Shown here: positions 2,848 to 9,621 of the stretch, one piece after another
Position numbering within the stretch: the first letter of the stretch is position 1
Layout of the letters: each line of letters opens with the position of its first letter
Translations under genes and position numbers: made by a program
The notes under the pieces: model-generated
The model's database searches: none
What the model was told of the DNA's origin: nothing
The model's input: the letters and a program-made list of their open reading frames with translations, nothing else
DNA from: Pseudomonadota bacterium
GTDB lineage: Bacteria > Myxococcota > Myxococcia > Myxococcales > Myxococcaceae
Direction: 5' to 3'
Assembly: GCA_023424585.1 (NCBI GenBank)
Contig: JAFADT010000030.1
Coordinates: 1-10,836, forward strand
DNA length: 10,836 nt

Positions 2848-3065
2848 GGATGACCTCCGTGCCTCCGACGTGTCCCCCCGCAACGCGGACGGGTGGGTGT
2901 CATTCTCCAGATACGCACGGCCGGGCGGGCGGACAGCCGGCCCCCGCTCCCCTGCCCGTTCCCCAGGCGGGCGGACCGCCGGTCCGTCCCCGGGGTGACG
3001 CACCGGCGGGCTGCGACAACACGCCACAGTGCGCCGGAGCGGGGGGACGCTAGGGTGGCCACGCC
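2848..3065. promoter_or_regulatory. Divergent regulatory spacer with direct repeat and dyad
   Basis: This 218-bp spacer lies between doxX (-) and the redox-sensor operon (+). A 17-bp word, GGCGGGCGGACMGCCGG, occurs at 2924-2940 and again at 2966-2982 with one mismatch. The copies are 42 bp apart, about four helical turns. The second copy runs into a perfect dyad, CGGACCG-C-CGGTCCG (2972-2986). A loose match to the degenerate RegA/PrrA-type pattern GCGNC-Nx-GNCGC is present at 3031-3050 (GCGCC, 10 nt, GACGC), but such matches are common by chance in DNA this rich in GC. No convincing -35/-10 pair was found for either direction. A regulatory role is inferred. Confidence 0.45.
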
Positions 3066-3956
3066 TTGAGCACCTCCATCCTGGCCCTCCTGAGCGCCGC
3101 GCTCCTCCTCGCCCCCGCGTCCGCGGCGTGGGCCTGCGCGAGCTGCGCGTGCGGGGACCCCACCCTCACGTCCATGGGCGGCGAGCAGCCCTTCGAAGGG
3201 CGCCTGCGGCTGTCCACGATGCTGCGCGCGTGGGGCCACACGGAGGGCGTGGCGGGCGTGGACGCGCAGCGGCTGCGCGAGCTGCGCATGGACGTGGCGG
3301 TGGCGTACGCGCCCAGGCCCTGGCTGGTGCTGGCGGTGAACCTGCCGCTCCAGGCGCGCGAGGTCCAGGACGTGAGCCTGGGGTTCGAGCGCGGCTGGGG
3401 GCTGGGCGACATCGACGTGAGCGCGAAGGCGTTCGTGTGGAAGGACAAGGAGTTCTCGCCGGACCAGCTGCTCAGCGTGGTGGGCGGGGTGAAGCTGCCC
3501 ACCGGCCCCCGGCTGCGCGCGCGGGACGGGACGGCGCTGGGCATCGACGCGCAGCCCGGCAGCGGCTCCGTGGATCCGATGGCGGGGCTGGCGTGGCAGG
3601 GCTTCCGGGGCAGCTGGTCGTTCCTCGCGAGCGCCCTGGGCTTCCTGCCCTCGCGCGGGCGCGACGACTATCGGCTGGGCGCGTCGGTGCGCACGCAGGT
3701 GGCGGCGCAGTATCAGCCGTCGCCCACCTGGGCGGTGCGCCTGGGCGTGGACACCCGGGCGGAGAAGGCGCCGGACACGAACGGCACGCCGGAGGAGTCC
3801 GGCGGAGGCTTCATCGCCTACGCGTCGCCGGACCTCCTCTTCAGCCCGGGCATGGACGTGGTGGTGCAGGCCGGGGTGCGCATCCCCGTCGTCAACCAGC
3901 TGCGCCGGGTGTCGTCCACGCCCATCGCGGTGCTCTCGCTCGCGTACGACCTGTGA
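3066..3956 (+). CDS. Exported beta-barrel-like protein with CxxCxC motif
   Basis: The protein has 296 residues. A signal peptide (residues 1-20, hydrophobic core ILALLSAALLLAPASA) is followed by WACASCACGDPTLTSMG, which holds Cys24, Cys27 and Cys29. The rest alternates amphipathic strands with turns (RMDVAVAYAPRPWLVLAVNL, GDIDVSAKAFVW, MDVVVQAGVRIPVV) and ends in a strand, AVLSLAYDL. This resembles an outer-membrane barrel of the transporter or phenol-degradation MetA-like class, but I do not recognise a named family. The only usable start is TTG 3066: an in-frame TAG lies at 3051 and no ATG/GTG precedes the signal peptide. The upstream AGGGTGG is a modest ribosome site. It is the first gene of the four-gene operon, and its TGA overlaps the next ATG by one base. 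The clustered cysteines may bind metal or form disulfides. Confidence 0.75.
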   Translation: MSTSILALLSAALLLAPASAAWACASCACGDPTLTSMGGEQPFEGRLRLSTMLRAWGHTEGVAGVDAQRLRELRMDVAVAYAPRPWLVLAVNLPLQAREVQDVSLGFERGWGLGDIDVSAKAFVWKDKEFSPDQLLSVVGGVKLPTGPRLRARDGTALGIDAQPGSGSVDPMAGLAWQGFRGSWSFLASALGFLPSRGRDDYRLGASVRTQVAAQYQPSPTWAVRLGVDTRAEKAPDTNGTPEESGGGFIAYASPDLLFSPGMDVVVQAGVRIPVVNQLRRVSSTPIAVLSLAYDL

Positions 3957-4699
3957 TGCTCCGCGCCGCGCGTCTGGGATGGCTGGGATGGCTGTGCATG
4001 CTGAGCGCGTGTGGCGAGCGCGTGGATGGCATGACCGTCACGCTGGGCCTGGAGCACCGGGCCGCCGCGCAGGGCATGCAGGCGGCGGGCGGCGACCGGT
4101 CCTTCACGCGCGCGGACGGCCAGGTGCTCACGCTGACGCGCGGCTACGTGGCGCTGGGCAGCGTGGAGCTGAGGCCGTGCGAGGAGGCGCTGGGCTGGCG
4201 GCTCTTGAAGGCGCTGTCGCCCGTTGGAACCGCGCACGCGCACTCGGTGGGGTCGCCGTTGAAGCTGGGCGTGCCGCACGTGAGCGGGCTGGAGCGGCCG
4301 GACGGGGACGTGCTGACGCTGGGCACGGTGCGGCCTCCGCCGGGGCGCTACTGCCGGGCGCGGCTCACCTTCGAGCCCGCGGACGCGGACGCGGAGGGGC
4401 TGCCGGGCGCGGACAGCGGCGTGGACATGAGGGAGCGCACGCTGTGGCTGGAGGGGACGCGGGTGCCCGCGGGGGGCGGTGAGCCCCAGCCGTTCCGGCT
4501 GGTGACGTCCAACGTGGCCACGGTGGACGTGGTGCTGGACGGGCTGACGCTGTCCGAGGAAGAGCCGGCGGCCGAGCGCACCTTCGCGCTCGCCTGGGAC
4601 ACGTGGCTGGCCACGGTGGACCTGGAGTCCCCCGACGCGGCGGCGGCGGCGCTGGACACGGTGGCCCGCTCCGTGGCGATGTCCTCCGCCACGCCATGA
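3956..4699 (+). CDS. Putative lipoprotein of unknown function (His/Cys-containing)
   Basis: The protein has 247 residues. A short signal sequence with the lipobox LSAC gives lipidated Cys19, with Gly20 and Glu21 following. The mature part is mostly beta-rich. It contains GYVALGSVELRPC (Cys75), a His-containing turn THAHS-like at TAHAHS (His94, His96) followed by KLGVPH (His108), and PPPGRYCRARLTF (Cys133), then a C-terminal TFALAWDTWLATVDLE. Cys75 and Cys133 could form a disulfide, and the HxH could bind a metal. The overall plan recalls small envelope metal-associated lipoproteins, but I cannot place it in a named family. The ATG overlaps the upstream TGA by one base (TGATG). The gene's own TGA overlaps the regB-like ATG by four bases, so translation is coupled on both sides. 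It is probably anchored in the outer or inner membrane facing the periplasm, as a possible partner of the barrel protein or of the sensor kinase. Confidence 0.75.
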   Translation: MLRAARLGWLGWLCMLSACGERVDGMTVTLGLEHRAAAQGMQAAGGDRSFTRADGQVLTLTRGYVALGSVELRPCEEALGWRLLKALSPVGTAHAHSVGSPLKLGVPHVSGLERPDGDVLTLGTVRPPPGRYCRARLTFEPADADAEGLPGADSGVDMRERTLWLEGTRVPAGGGEPQPFRLVTSNVATVDVVLDGLTLSEEEPAAERTFALAWDTWLATVDLESPDAAAAALDTVARSVAMSSATP

Positions 4700-6003
4700 C
4701 GCCATCACCGCGGCCCTCCTCCGAACCCTCGCTCCGCGCCCGCATCAACCTGGTGTGGCTGTTGCGGCTGCGCTGGGGCGTGCTGGTGGGGCAGGCGGTG
4801 CTGGTGGCGGTGGCGGCGTGGGGCCTGAAGCTGGTGCTGCCGGTGCCCGCGCTGGTGGCGCTGCTGGGTCTGGAGGCGGTGACGAACGCGGCGGTGCGCG
4901 CGGGGCTCGCCAGGGCGCGGCCGGTGGCGGAGGCGGCCATCTTCGGGCTGATGCTCTGGGACACGCTGGTGCTCACGGGGCTGCTCGCGCTGAGCGGTGG
5001 CACGCACAACCCCTTCACCACGCTGTACCTGGTGAACGTGGCGCTGGGCACGGTGCTGCTGCCGCCGCGCCGCACGTGGGCGATGCTGGGCGTCACGCTG
5101 GTGGCGTTCGGGTCGCTGTTCGTGTTGCAGGACGTGACGCTGCCGGGGCTGGAGCGGCCGGACCACGCGGAGCTGATGCGGCTGCACCTGAGCGGCATGT
5201 GGGTGGCGTTCGCGGTGGCGGCGGGCTTCATCGTGTATTTCATCCAGCGCGTGACGCGAGCCCTGGCCCGGCGTGAGCAGGAGTTGGAGCAGGCGAGGGC
5301 AAGGCACGCGAGGCAGGAGAAGGTGGCCTCGCTGGCGACGCTGGCGGCGGGCGCGGCGCATGAGCTGTCCACGCCGCTGTCCACCATCGCGGTGGTGGCG
5401 AAGGAGCTGGAGCGGGCGCTCGCGGCATCACAGACATCTGAGTCAGTGAGAGAGGATTTGAGGCTCATCCGCCAGCAGGTGGACCGCTGCCGGGACGTGC
5501 TGGTGCAGATGTCCGCGGACGCGGGTCAGACGACGGGCGAGCCCTTCCAGCCCATCCCGCTGGAGCGGCTTGTGGAGGAGACGCTGTCGGAGCTGACGGG
5601 CCGCGAGCGGGTGCGGGTGGATGTGCCGGAGGCCCTGAGGACACAGCGGGTGCACGGACCGCCGAGAGCGCTCGCGAGGGTGCTGCGGGGGCTGGTGAAG
5701 AACGCGCTCCAGGCAACGCCCGCGGGCCGGGGCGTGGAGCTGCGGGCGCTGCCGGAGGGCACGGGCGCGCGGCTGGAGGTGCGCGACGAGGGCCAGGGCA
5801 TGCCAGAGGCGGTGCTGACACGCGCGGGAGAGCCGTTCTTCACGACGAAGGCGCCGGGCGAAGGCATGGGGTTGGGCTTGTTCCTGGCGCGCTCGCTGGC
5901 GGAGCAGTTGGGAGGCTCCCTGGAGCTGCGCTCGAAGGCGGGGGAGGGCACGACGGCGAGCCTGAGCCTGCCGGGCGAGGGCGCGAAGGAAGCGGCGGCA
6001 TGA
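4696..6003 (+). CDS. regB: RegB/PrrB-type redox sensor histidine kinase
   Basis: The protein has 435 residues. The N-terminal half has about six membrane helices (residues ~22-48, 49-68, 78-99, 107-122, 128-144, 167-184). Between them lies GGTHNPF (101-107), which matches the GGxxNPF quinone-site motif of RegB. A coiled linker (186-208) leads to the H-box AAGAAHELSTPL, with His222 as the predicted phosphorylation site. The redox box RCRDVL follows, with Cys265, equivalent to the redox-active cysteine of Rhodobacter RegB. The ATP-binding core has VKNALQ (Asn336), RDEGQGM (Asp364), FFTTK and GEGMGLGL. In this family the kinase autophosphorylates when the ubiquinone pool and cysteine state signal low oxygen or reducing conditions, and it passes the phosphate to RegA. 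The ATG at 4696 overlaps the previous stop (ATGA), and the gene's own stop overlaps the regulator's ATG in the same way. Identification rests on the two family-specific motifs and the adjacent RegA. Confidence 0.9.
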   Translation: MTPSPRPSSEPSLRARINLVWLLRLRWGVLVGQAVLVAVAAWGLKLVLPVPALVALLGLEAVTNAAVRAGLARARPVAEAAIFGLMLWDTLVLTGLLALSGGTHNPFTTLYLVNVALGTVLLPPRRTWAMLGVTLVAFGSLFVLQDVTLPGLERPDHAELMRLHLSGMWVAFAVAAGFIVYFIQRVTRALARREQELEQARARHARQEKVASLATLAAGAAHELSTPLSTIAVVAKELERALAASQTSESVREDLRLIRQQVDRCRDVLVQMSADAGQTTGEPFQPIPLERLVEETLSELTGRERVRVDVPEALRTQRVHGPPRALARVLRGLVKNALQATPAGRGVELRALPEGTGARLEVRDEGQGMPEAVLTRAGEPFFTTKAPGEGMGLGLFLARSLAEQLGGSLELRSKAGEGTTASLSLPGEGAKEAAA

Positions 6004-6557
6004 GCACGGTCCCGGTGGATCAGCGTCCCAGCCTGTTGCTGGTGGACGACGACAGCACGCTGCGCGAGCGCCTGGCGAGGGCCTTCCGCGAGCGCGGCTG
6101 GGACGTGACGACGGCGGGCAACCACGACGAAGCCATGGCGGCGGCGCGGCGCGAATCACCGGAGTACGCGGTGGTGGATCTGCGCATGCCGGGCCACAGC
6201 GGGCTGGAGCTGGTGCGCGACCTGCTGGCGGTGGATGCGTCCACGCGAGTCATCGTGCTGACGGGCTACGGCAGCATCTCCACGACGGTGGACGCCATCC
6301 GGCTGGGAGCGGTGAACTACCTGCCGAAGCCCGCGGACGCGGACGACATCCTGGCGGCGTTCGCGCGGGCGGAGGAAGCACCGAACGTCGCGGCGCCGGA
6401 GACGCTCCAGGCGCCGTCACTGGCGCGAGCGGAGTGGGAGCACATCCACCGCGTGCTCGCGGACAGCGCCGGCAACATCTCCGAGGCCGCCCGCAAGCTG
6501 GGCATCCACCGCCGGTCGCTCCAGCGGAAGCTCCAGAAGTACCCGCCGTCGCGCTGA
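6000..6557 (+). CDS. regA: RegA/PrrA-type response regulator
   Basis: The protein has 185 residues, the normal RegA size. The receiver domain (11-120) has the acidic pocket VDDD (Asp16-18), phospho-acceptor Asp60 in VVDLRMPG, Thr88 in VLTGYGS and Lys110 in LPKPAD. A short Ala/Pro linker is followed by the C-terminal Fis-like helix-turn-helix, WEHIHRVLADSAGNISEAAR and the segment HRRSLQRKLQK (residues 146-180). This closely follows the conserved RegA pattern of WEHIxRV, NxSEAARxLxxHRRxLQR and KxxP. In the alpha-proteobacteria RegA is a global activator and repressor of respiration, carbon and nitrogen fixation and photosynthesis genes. The regulon here is unknown, and the exported proteins of its own operon are obvious candidates. 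It is translated from an ATGA overlap with regB and closes the operon. Confidence 0.9.
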   Translation: MSTVPVDQRPSLLLVDDDSTLRERLARAFRERGWDVTTAGNHDEAMAAARRESPEYAVVDLRMPGHSGLELVRDLLAVDASTRVIVLTGYGSISTTVDAIRLGAVNYLPKPADADDILAAFARAEEAPNVAAPETLQAPSLARAEWEHIHRVLADSAGNISEAARKLGIHRRSLQRKLQKYPPSR

Positions 6558-7170: not shown

Positions 7171-7602
7171 ATGAAGCCCATTCCCGAGGACTGGCCGCGC
7201 ATCTCTTCCAGCCTCTTCTACGTGGACGCCCCCGCCGCCATCGACTGGCTGGAGCGCGCCTTCGGCTTCCAGACGCGCCTCAAGGTGGAGGGCGCGGACA
7301 ACACCATCGTGCACTCGGAGCTGGTCTACGGCGACGGCGTCATCATGGTGAACTCCTCCGGGCGCCACGGCCTCCACCAGAGCCCCCGGCTGCACGACGG
7401 CGTCAACACCCAGACCCTCATGGTCTACGTGGACGACGTGGACGCCCACTGCGCCCAGGCGCGCGCGGCCGGCGCCGTCATCCTCTCGGAGCCCGAGACC
7501 AAGAACTACGGCGACGACTGGGGCACCAACCGCACCTACGGCGCCCAGGACCTGGAGGGCCACCGCTGGTGGTTCACCCAGCGCGTCTCCGGGCCCAGGT
7601 AG
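7171..7602 (+). CDS. VOC-superfamily (glyoxalase/bleomycin-resistance fold, PhnB-like) protein
   Basis: The protein has 143 residues with the paired beta-alpha-beta-beta-beta architecture of the vicinal-oxygen-chelate fold. The first half is SSSLFYVDAPAAIDWLERAFGF, then VHSELVYGDGVIMV (His48, Glu50). The second half is MVYVDDVDAHCAQARAAGA, then GAQDLEGHRWWF (Glu129, His131). Length and motifs fit the PhnB/YdfO-like class. Members include lyases, dioxygenases and drug-binding resistance proteins, and the substrate cannot be read here. The ATG at 7171 has AGGAGT 7 nt upstream and follows the AT-rich promoter. It is the first gene of a three-gene unit with an ArsR regulator and an SRPBCC protein, which suggests a role in response to a small organic molecule. 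Confidence 0.85.
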   Translation: MKPIPEDWPRISSSLFYVDAPAAIDWLERAFGFQTRLKVEGADNTIVHSELVYGDGVIMVNSSGRHGLHQSPRLHDGVNTQTLMVYVDDVDAHCAQARAAGAVILSEPETKNYGDDWGTNRTYGAQDLEGHRWWFTQRVSGPR

Positions 7603-7614
7603 CCTCCCGCGCCC

Positions 7615-7977
7615 ATGGCTCCCCCGTCCGCGCTCGACCGCACCCTGGCCGCCCTCGCCGACCCCACGCGCCGGGGCGTCGTGGACCGGCTGCGCCGCCG
7701 GCCCCAGCCCGCTGGCGAGCTGGCCGCCGCGTTCGACATGAGCCCTCCGGCCATGTCCCGCCACCTGCGCGTGCTGCGCCAGACGGGGCTCGTGGAGGAG
7801 CGCATCGACGCGGACGACGCCCGCGTGCGCGTCTACTCGCTGCGCCCGGAGCCCTTCGCCGCCCTGCGCGGCTGGCTCGACGAGGTGGAGTCCTTCTGGG
7901 AGGACCAGCTGGGCGCCTTCAAGGCCCACGCCGAACGCACCCGCGCCACGAAGCCCTCCGGAGGCCGCAAGTCATGA
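7615..7977 (+). CDS. ArsR-family winged-helix transcriptional regulator
   Basis: The protein has 120 residues. The pattern LAALADPTRRGVVDRL (residues 11-26), followed by the helix-turn-helix AGELAAAFDMSPPAMSRHLRVLRQTGLV (33-60) and the beta-wing VRVYSLRPEPF (71-81), is diagnostic of the family. No cysteine is present, so it is not a thiol metal sensor of the classical ArsR/SmtB kind. It belongs instead with the YdfF-like group that is paired with SRPBCC proteins. The gene starts 12 nt after the VOC stop, with only a weak ribosome site, so it probably relies on coupling. Its stop overlaps the next ATG (ATGA). The likely target is the dyad at 7108-7142, making the operon self-regulated; this is inferred. 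Confidence 0.88.
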   Translation: MAPPSALDRTLAALADPTRRGVVDRLRRRPQPAGELAAAFDMSPPAMSRHLRVLRQTGLVEERIDADDARVRVYSLRPEPFAALRGWLDEVESFWEDQLGAFKAHAERTRATKPSGGRKS

Positions 7978-8459
7978 CCGCGGACCGCGCCCGCGTCACC
8001 ACCTTCGTCGCCGTGTCCCCGCTGGACGCCTTCGAGGTCTTCACCCAGGAGACCGACCTCTGGTGGAAGAAGGGCCCGCGCTACCGCGCCGTCCGGAACC
8101 CCCGCGGCGTCCTGCGCTTCGACCCGCCCGGCCCCGGCGGGCGCCTGCTGGAGTCCTTCGAGGAGGAGGTCTTCGAGATTGGCCGCGTGCTCGTCTGGGA
8201 GCCCGGCGCGCGGCTCGTCTTCCAGTGGCGCGCGACCCACTTCGCCCCCGGGGAGACCACCGAGGTCGACGTCCGCTTCGAGCCCACCTTCGGCGGCACC
8301 CGCGTCGTGCTGGAGCACCGGGGCTGGGACGCCATCCGCATGGACCACCCCGTGCGCCACGGCCAGGATGGCGCGGCCACCCTCGCGACGATGGGCCGCT
8401 GGTGGGGGGAACTCGTCACGCGCTACCGCCTCCACGTCGCGCGGCCCCGCCCCACGTGA
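7974..8459 (+). CDS. SRPBCC/AHSA1-domain protein
   Basis: The protein has 161 residues. The START/Bet v1-like helix-grip fold is suggested by VTTFVAVSPLDAFEVFTQETDLWWKKG at the N-terminus. The usual strand series follows (GRLLESF, EEVFEIGRVLVWEPGARLVFQWRA, TTEVDVRFEPTFGGTRVVLEHRGW), then a C-terminal amphipathic helix (GWDAI to WGELVTRYRLHV). AHSA1-type proteins bind hydrophobic ligands in a central cavity. Genes for them commonly lie next to, or fused with, ArsR regulators, where they are thought to bind the inducer. The ATG overlaps the arsR stop by four bases, giving strict translational coupling. The gene converges on the NGMTL lipoprotein gene, with 21 nt between stops. Confidence 0.86.
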   Translation: MTADRARVTTFVAVSPLDAFEVFTQETDLWWKKGPRYRAVRNPRGVLRFDPPGPGGRLLESFEEEVFEIGRVLVWEPGARLVFQWRATHFAPGETTEVDVRFEPTFGGTRVVLEHRGWDAIRMDHPVRHGQDGAATLATMGRWWGELVTRYRLHVARPRPT

Positions 8460-8463
8460 GACA

Positions 8464-8493
8464 CCCCGCGCCGCCCGCGCCTACGGGCAGGGG
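8464..8493. terminator. Possible hairpin between convergent genes
   Basis: GCCCG (8473-8477) and CGGGC (8484-8488) form a 5-bp stem with a 6-nt loop. An outer CCCC/GGGG pair (8464-8467 and 8490-8493) could extend it across internal bulges. The loop contains the stop codon of the minus-strand lipoprotein gene (complement of 8481-8483). There is no T-run. This is a weak candidate for a shared terminator. Confidence 0.3.
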
Positions 8494-9428
8494 CCGCAGT
8501 CCGCCGCGCAGCTGTCGGCCGTGTTGCCGCCGCCGCACTTCTCCGTCAGCTGGCACACGCCGTCGCCGCAGCGGTAGATGTCCTGGGGCAGCATGCGCGT
8601 GGTGACGGGCCGGTAGTTCACGCCGTTATACGTGCAGCGCGTGTAGTACGTCCGCGTGGCGTCCAGCGTGCAGTAGTACCGGCACGCGCCCACGTGCTTC
8701 ATGGGCTCGCACGACACGGTGTCACTCCAGGACGACAGGCCGCAGGTGCGCACCGTGCTCTCGTCGTAGTCCAGGTACGCGCCGTCGTTCGCCGCGAACA
8801 CGCCCTCGCCCGTGAAGAGGTTGCCGAAGAAGCACGCCTCCTTCTCGCTGTATGTATTCAGCTCGTCCGGGGTGTACGGCACCGCCCCGCCCGCCGCGTC
8901 GCGCCCCAGCAGGGAGATGTTCACGTGCACGCCATACTTGTTCGCGTGCGCCGCCAGGCACGCGCTCACCACCTGCTGCTCCGCCACCGTCGCCGGCTGC
9001 CCGCCCGCCCACCCCTGCGCCAGTCCCAGACTCCCATCCCAGGTGTAGCGCGCGCCCGTGGACGGGGACTGGTACGTCAGCGCCACCCCCGCCCCCAGCG
9101 AGCACTTCACCACGTAGCGCATCACCATGTCCGACAGCGCGGGATCCTGCTGGAACCAGGTCTGGAATGCGCTCGTGGACAGGGCCGTCGCCGTCAGGCC
9201 ATTCACCAACAGGCCATTCAGGGTCATCCCGTTCAAGGTCATTCCATTCAAGGTCATGCCGTTCAACGTCATGCCATTGGTGGAGGCGAGCGCCTCCGCG
9301 GACCGGCCCGTCACCACGTCCGAGCCTTCGTCGAGGGGAGCGCCACAGCCCACCAGGGCCGCGGCAAGACAGAGCGCCGTCCAGGGAGCGGAACGAAACA
9401 GGGCGTTGCGAGGGGGATTGCGCTGCAT
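8481..9428 (-). CDS. Cys-rich lipoprotein with tandem NGMTL repeats
   Basis: The protein has 315 residues. The signal sequence ends in the lipobox LVGC (Cys28). A low-complexity linker follows, then six five-residue units at 51-80: NGMTL four times, NGLLV and NGLTA. A globular region (about 85-285) carries nine cysteines. The C-terminal segment, CGDGVCQLTEKC then CAADCGPCP, adds five more within 28 residues and resembles the short disulfide-rich modules found at the ends of myxobacterial surface proteins. The many paired cysteines indicate an oxidised extracytoplasmic location. Asn-Gly-rich pentads of this kind recur in myxobacterial exported proteins, but I know no function for them. The ATG complementary to 9426-9428 has GGAGG 7 nt upstream. 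The frame extends 53 codons further, but that part lacks a signal and contains the upstream dyad. No enzymatic motif was seen. Confidence 0.82.
   Translation of the reverse strand: MQRNPPRNALFRSAPWTALCLAAALVGCGAPLDEGSDVVTGRSAEALASTNGMTLNGMTLNGMTLNGMTLNGLLVNGLTATALSTSAFQTWFQQDPALSDMVMRYVVKCSLGAGVALTYQSPSTGARYTWDGSLGLAQGWAGGQPATVAEQQVVSACLAAHANKYGVHVNISLLGRDAAGGAVPYTPDELNTYSEKEACFFGNLFTGEGVFAANDGAYLDYDESTVRTCGLSSWSDTVSCEPMKHVGACRYYCTLDATRTYYTRCTYNGVNYRPVTTRMLPQDIYRCGDGVCQLTEKCGGGNTADSCAADCGPCP
9189..9278 (-). repeat. Six tandem 15-bp units encoding N-G-x-x-x pentapeptides
   Basis: Exact 15-bp units at 9264-9278, 9249-9263, 9234-9248 and 9219-9233 (coding-strand order) each encode NGMTL. The units at 9204-9218 and 9189-9203 encode NGLLV and NGLTA. 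The four NGMTL units differ from each other at third codon positions, yet their peptide is identical, so the peptide and not just the DNA appears to be maintained. Confidence 0.9.
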
Positions 9429-9450
9429 AGGGCTGCCTCCGCGTGGGTGA

Positions 9451-9467
9451 CCGCACGGGCCGTGCGG
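9451..9467. promoter_or_regulatory. Perfect 17-bp dyad upstream of the NGMTL lipoprotein
   Basis: CCGCACGG-G-CCGTGCGG has 8-bp perfect arms around one central base. It lies 22 nt upstream of the lipoprotein start codon and just ahead of its GGAGG. It could be a repressor operator or a leader hairpin that affects translation. No clear promoter hexamers were found nearby, and the 193-bp spacer up to 9621 otherwise shows nothing distinctive. Confidence 0.4.
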
Positions 9468-9621
9468 TCTGATCAACCGGTAAACGCACTCCGACGAAGT
9501 GAGCAGCGCCCCTGCCCTCCCGGCCCATCCCCTTCGGTCCTTCGCACAACACGCGCGGCGTGCGGCGGCGGACGCTCCCTGCTTCACCGCATGGCGGCGA
9601 ACGCTGACCCCTTCCGAAAGA

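Follow-up and report, generated by a model that had tools for sequence, protein, structure and literature searches.

We examined a 10,836-nucleotide stretch of DNA from a soil bacterium of the Myxococcaceae (hereafter the window; contig JAFADT010000030.1 of assembly GCA_023424585.1), in which a redox regulatory system of the RegB/RegA type (RegBA) is encoded behind two exported proteins, here called P1 and P2. We propose, with moderate confidence, that RegBA controls an envelope copper module made up of P1, P2, MbnP and MbnH, and that this module holds the place that SenC has in Rhodobacter. RegBA, MbnPH and channels of the PF13557 family are already known; what would be new is their joining, and the presence of P1-P2 in the place of SenC. 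MbnP and MbnH (TIGR04052 and TIGR04039, GenProp0940) are known as the “metallo-mystery pair”. They are described in an excerpt of PMC3621798 as conserved far beyond methanobactin producers, with a role that was unclear in 2013, and MbnPH-like genes are placed in copper operons in the portion of PMC9426467 that we consulted. No literature linking RegBA with MbnPH was found in a search that did not extend to subscription journals and did not query RegA and MbnH as a pair.

The four genes lie on the + strand in the order P1 (3066..3956, with a TTG start), P2 (3956..4699), RegB (4696..6003) and RegA (6000..6557), with successive overlaps of 1 nt (TGATG), 4 nt (ATGA) and 4 nt (ATGA). The initial annotation had described this overlapping cluster as encoding an exported barrel-like protein, a lipoprotein, a RegB-type kinase and a RegA-type regulator. 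These assignments hold: the coordinates and overlaps were re-read from the sequence, P1 matches PF13557 and models as a 12-strand barrel, P2 has a conserved lipobox cysteine, and the RegB and RegA families are the best NCBIfam matches of the last two proteins, both below the curated cut-offs.

Conservation of the gene neighborhood

We found 58 loci by searching the genome collection with the P1 alignment, and the linkage of P1 to its partners is conserved among them. At 37 of them P1 has RegB or RegA as a neighbor within 5 kb; once the 22 loci of the close Corallococcus/Myxococcus/Pyxidicoccus/Citreicoccus group are set aside, the count is 15 of 36. MbnP or MbnH, called as neighbors by TIGR04052/TIGR04039 over cut-off and by PF20243/PF03150, is found within the same distance in 14. 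Both kinds of partner are present at 7 loci, either at 44, and neither at 14, some of which are on short pieces. The gene order is P1-P2-RegB-RegA in the window and its relatives, RegB-RegA-P1-P2 in L036 and L037, P2-P1-RegB in L027, MbnP-P2-P1-RegB-RegA in L051, and MbnP-MbnH-P1-lipoprotein-RegB-RegA in L032. RegBA and P1 are divergent in L030, L042 and L048, and in L053 (titled uncultured Pseudomonadales bacterium) RegBA-like genes are divergent from an adjoining MbnP-MbnH-P1-P2 set. The suggestion that the cluster is a conserved unit is thus supported by adjacency that survives shuffling of the gene order. Overall the exported pair does not occur mostly without RegBA, yet 21 of the 58 loci have no RegBA nearby, often with MbnPH instead.

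In three further loci (L033, L034 and L040) RegB-RegA come directly after P1 and P2 was not detected in between, and the lipoprotein-sized open reading frames adjoining P1 in L030, L042 and L046 match no Pfam family. P1 is also present in records titled Comamonas sp. (L019) and Klebsiella pneumoniae (L043); these labels are doubtful, and the content of L019 is Myxococcus-like.

We then compared the occurrence of the genes in 193 Myxococcota genomes, counting P1 as strong at 270 bits or more and MbnH at an E-value threshold of 1e-100. Strong P1 was present in 73 genomes, MbnH in 80, and both in 69 (Fisher p 3e-35, a statistic that ignores kinship); strong P1 was missing from 11 of the MbnH genomes, and MbnH from four of the strong-P1 genomes. 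P2 occurs somewhere in 71 of the 73 strong-P1 genomes and within 5 kb of P1 in 67, after 10 weak second P2 matches were excluded from the distance survey. A RegA match is listed in all 73, and RegA lies within 6 kb of P1 in at least 50, with no listed RegA within 6 kb in the other 23; the RegA matches listed cover 120 of 122 genomes, and the RegA distances are lower bounds. One genome (G019) was scored as lacking RegA, though RegB and RegA adjoin its P1. MbnH is within 6 kb of P1 in 10 of the strong-P1 genomes; in another 10 it lies farther off but within 20 kb. In G062, G119, G123 and G129, P2 is 1.2 kb from MbnH and P1 is not nearby. In Corallococcus mbnPH is on another contig or far from P1-P2. 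MbnH was over cut-off in 33 of the 42 genomes reached via P1 loci, 43 of the 58 loci having been sampled for this count. Among 229 gammaproteobacterial genomes, P1 (278 bits or more) was found in five, always 41-1096 bp from MbnH; this set was centered on G036, which is one of the five and was itself found through P1. MbnH was over cut-off in 10 of the 229, and P1 was missing from five of these 10.

A promoter box upstream of P1 and mbnPH

A RegA-like palindromic box, GCGACAACACGCCAC (3013..3027, + strand), which fits the pattern GYGRCANNNYGCCRC, precedes P1 in the window. It is followed by a -10-like element, TAGGGT (3051..3056, + strand), with its T 24 nt past the box. As this element is only 9 nt ahead of the TTG start, the P1 transcript may be a leaderless mRNA. 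A single GYGRCANNNYGCCRC match in the window is unsurprising by itself (0.20 expected; at least one in 35 of 200 shuffles), but the same 15-nt palindrome stands upstream of P1 at every one of 11 Corallococcus loci, and upstream of MbnP at four other loci. The pattern occurs upstream of 47 of 71 distinct P1 proteins and 13 of 32 MbnP proteins. In L001-L058 together with the window, 31 of the 40 matches in 0.94 Mb are before P1 and three before MbnP. When each 65% cluster was reduced to a single representative, the box was found in 6 of 24 (P1) and 4 of 19 (MbnP) cases, against 0.0008 expected. The spacing is fixed as well: a TA whose T lies 24-25 nt after the box is present in 45 of 47 P1 and 13 of 14 MbnP box-bearing upstream regions.

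In 13 genomes, the stricter pattern GYGRCAACNYGCCRC gave 83 matches compared to 49 for the reversed control, and was seen by eye before P1 in 11 and before MbnP in 9; apart from P1 and MbnP, the sites at the strict-box loci (L119-L168) are mostly within genes. We looked for the box together with its TA in 25 Myxococcia genomes chosen for having both P1 and mbnPH; this composite precedes P1 in 22 (not in G011, G012 or G122) and mbnPH in 24 (not in G122). The mbnPH genes carrying it are often unlinked to P1. Across these genomes the composite is not enriched: it gave 141 matches, or about six per genome, and the reversed control gave 173. Some of these same promoters had served to refine the pattern, which makes the counts partly circular; more weight lies with the mbnPH promoters that are unlinked to P1. 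Given this common promoter element, and the adjacency of the genes in many relatives, P1-P2-RegBA and mbnPH probably work as one system.

The box can also be compared to published sites. A Rhodobacter capsulatus RegA site from chromatin immunoprecipitation, GCGACAGGACGCCGC, printed in the part of PMC5359404 that we consulted, fits the pattern. The R. capsulatus consensus quoted in PMC5506826 agrees with the window box at 14 of 15 positions, but it is common by chance here at 0.21 per 125 nt, and that paper reports no RegA motif in its own species. G009 (L065) encodes MbnPH as two complete pairs plus a third that is reversed and divergent; an SCO1 gene lies among these pairs, and the box stands before two of the three. 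In G003 (L149), a box at 2501 with TA precedes a lipoprotein that matches c-type cytochromes (1616-2461, - strand), and in G113, G136 and G149 (L219, L220 and L221) box and TA precede a secreted BNR/Vps10-type propeller protein 50-90 kb from P1. Both proteins are possible further targets, each in few genomes.

Features of the four proteins

P1 scores 36.9 bits against PF13557, above the gathering score of 22, and its structural model is a 12-strand barrel of the COG4313/FapF type, with a mean predicted local distance difference test score (pLDDT) of 90.5; comparison of the model with PDB structures likewise points to an exported outer-membrane channel. It differs from FapF and other COG4313 channels in its neighbors, MbnPH and RegBA, and in a conserved N-terminal tail, CxxCxCGDPTLT. 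The cysteines of this tail (Cys24, Cys27 and Cys29; within 3135..3152, + strand) are a candidate Cu(I) site. In the P1 alignment Cys24 and Cys27 are kept in 44 of 45 rows, and Cys29 in 36.

Database relatives of P2 are 99% and 91% identical, the latter from Corallococcus exiguus and others, which places the window in Corallococcus or a very near relative. Its lipobox Cys19 is kept in all 26 divergent homologs. No Pfam family matches more than one of 42 P2 members at an E-value of 1, no match falls below 0.03, and a sequence search of PDB gave no useful match, which argues against P2 belonging to a known family covered by these searches. The predicted fold of P2 is nearest to MbnP (7L6G). At the level of sequence, the match of P2 to MbnP is weak, at 53.5% over 68 columns and 84.1% over 74. 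PF20243 (MbnP) matches none of the 42 members, TIGR04052 does not match the P2 of the window, and this P2 lacks the WxW motif that all 26 rows of the MbnP alignment share. His96 (4241..4243, + strand), conserved in 25 of 26 rows of the P2 alignment, is a candidate metal ligand in a low-confidence loop (pLDDT 55), and Cys75 and Cys133 are present in all 26. The envelope proteins had been called unrecognised, and this stands for P2, whereas P1 has its PF13557 match.

The kinase gives its best NCBIfam match to NF033792 (E 6.1e-78, 262.5 bits; curated cut-off 350), and the regulator, which has a receiver (PF00072) and a Fis-type helix-turn-helix (HTH) domain (PF02954), to NF033791 (E 4e-53, 180 bits; curated cut-off 250). 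No RegA in the 193 Myxococcota genomes exceeds the NF033791 cut-off. Two RegB motifs are kept. GGTHNPF (4996..5016, + strand; residue 101) has the form of the quinone-site heptapeptide GGxxNPF, described as such in an extract of PMC10525716, and is conserved in 36 of 38 RegB homologs from the loci. Cys265 (5488..5490, + strand), the only cysteine of RegB, has the same number as the redox cysteine of R. capsulatus RegB, whose role in redox and oxygen sensing is given in an extract of PMC9147068; 35 of the 38 homologs have a cysteine there. The initial annotation had also proposed reporting through the quinone pool; one motif, the heptapeptide, would fit this.

These features are shared with the RegB/RegA systems of Alphaproteobacteria (PrrBA, ActSR, RegSR) that occur with senC: the kinase-regulator pair, GGxxNPF, Cys265, and an operon holding a copper-linked envelope protein. 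The window differs in that its RegB and RegA fall below the NCBIfam cut-offs and that P1-P2 replace SCO1/SenC. Cotranscription of senC is a feature of Group 1 RegBA, and the window operon has P1-P2 instead. SenC/SCO1 (PF02630) was found in 20 of 21 genomes and was never closer than 285 kb to P1 on its contig, which rules it out as a hidden neighbor in these genomes and supports the view that other exported proteins hold its place. RegA differs as well. The Cys156 before the HTH domain, invariant in Group 1 RegA, forms a copper-promoted disulfide in R. capsulatus according to the same extract of PMC9147068; in the window the residue is Ser156 (6465..6467, + strand), a match that rests on the peptide VYELCDR printed there and on the residues flanking it. 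The Cys156 copper-disulfide mechanism is therefore impossible in this RegA. Among 37 homologs the position is Ser in 18, Cys in 17 and another residue in 2.

Proposed function and neighboring genes

We picture 3013-6557 as one half of the module and the mbnP-mbnH operon as the other half. RegB would read the quinone and thiol redox state, and RegA would bind the 15-nt box, in an activator-like position just upstream of the -10-like element, and switch on its own operon (P1-P2-regB-regA) together with mbnPH, such that one redox signal would set all of them. Maturation by MbnH, a di-haem enzyme, would enable MbnP to bind copper, which is what has been reported of these families elsewhere; Manesis et al. 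reportedly found in 2021 that copper binding by MbnP depends on MbnH, via kynurenine. P2, with its predicted MbnP-like fold, would be a second envelope copper partner, and P1 an outer-membrane path for copper or a copper-loaded carrier; for myxobacteria copper is a putative cargo, and either direction of transport is likewise putative. Envelope copper supply or removal would be tied to the respiratory redox state, comparable to the SenC-RegBA link in Rhodobacter. The initial annotation had suggested that the cluster senses or handles a metal or redox compound in the envelope. The metal theme gains support, as P1-P2 travel with copper-binding MbnP/MbnH. A role for the exported proteins as a sensor feeding RegB does not; they resemble outputs under its control instead. 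P1-P2 adjoin the MbnP/MbnH pair in many genomes, share its promoter box, and include a protein that models nearest to MbnP, although P1, P2 and RegBA lie outside the pair as described in the excerpt of PMC3621798.

An unlikely alternative, the best placed of those we considered, keeps the module and its regulator but makes P1 a FapF-like secretion channel. The polypeptide sent through it to the cell surface would be MbnP, P2 or a copper form of either, and the output a surface or vesicle copper protein instead of copper transport through P1. We find it improbable that the box belongs to a regulator other than RegA. Binding of RegA to the box is a prediction from sequence, and Archangium-type genomes retain the box though RegBA is far away; however, it is similar in length and half-sites to RegR and RegA sites in the literature, a RegA match is listed for every strong-P1 genome, and in the window the box fronts the operon of regBA itself. 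Somewhat less probable still is co-regulation of RegBA, P1-P2 and mbnPH for envelope redox or peroxide chemistry and not for copper. MbnH is CCP_MauG-like and belongs to a di-haem peroxidase group, RegBA is a redox system, and the box before the c-type cytochrome lipoprotein in one genome would fit, but MbnP is a named copper-binding family (TIGR04052) and is placed in copper operons. Old synteny or hitch-hiking without a common function, with P1 as a generic PF13557 channel for hydrophobic compounds, is very improbable: although PF13557 is named for phenol degradation and the 22 loci from close Myxococcaceae make up much of the count, membership stays while order and strand vary, unlinked loci have the common box, and the link recurs in Gammaproteobacteria, where the weaker PF13557-like matches (at most 90 bits) are of a type other than P1.

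We advance more tentatively the stronger form of the RegBA-copper proposal, in which RegBA of the Myxococcota acts narrowly, as a switch dedicated to the four-protein copper module, and in which the channel P1, with its Cys tail, and P2, as a stripped-down relative of MbnP, are unrecognised members of the MbnPH system. If true, more than one lineage would link RegBA to copper handling and, together with SenC in Alphaproteobacteria, this coupling would be a recurrent principle reached via unrelated proteins. The MbnP/MbnH pair is widespread, and a regulator, a common promoter element and two companions in the envelope would make its role outside methanobactin operons testable in Myxococcus xanthus, which is tractable in the laboratory.

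The window also encodes other genes around the operon. A lipoprotein-like open reading frame (8481-9587, - strand) has a short tandem MTLNG repeat after its signal region, and its search against Pfam gave only a weak match to a lipid-attachment motif, below cut-off. Genes for a VOC/glyoxalase protein, an ArsR-type HTH protein and an AHSA1 protein are consecutive at 7171-8459. A DoxX-family gene (2410-2847, - strand) is divergent from P1, the upstream region being common to both, and a member of its cluster is near P1 in 13 loci.
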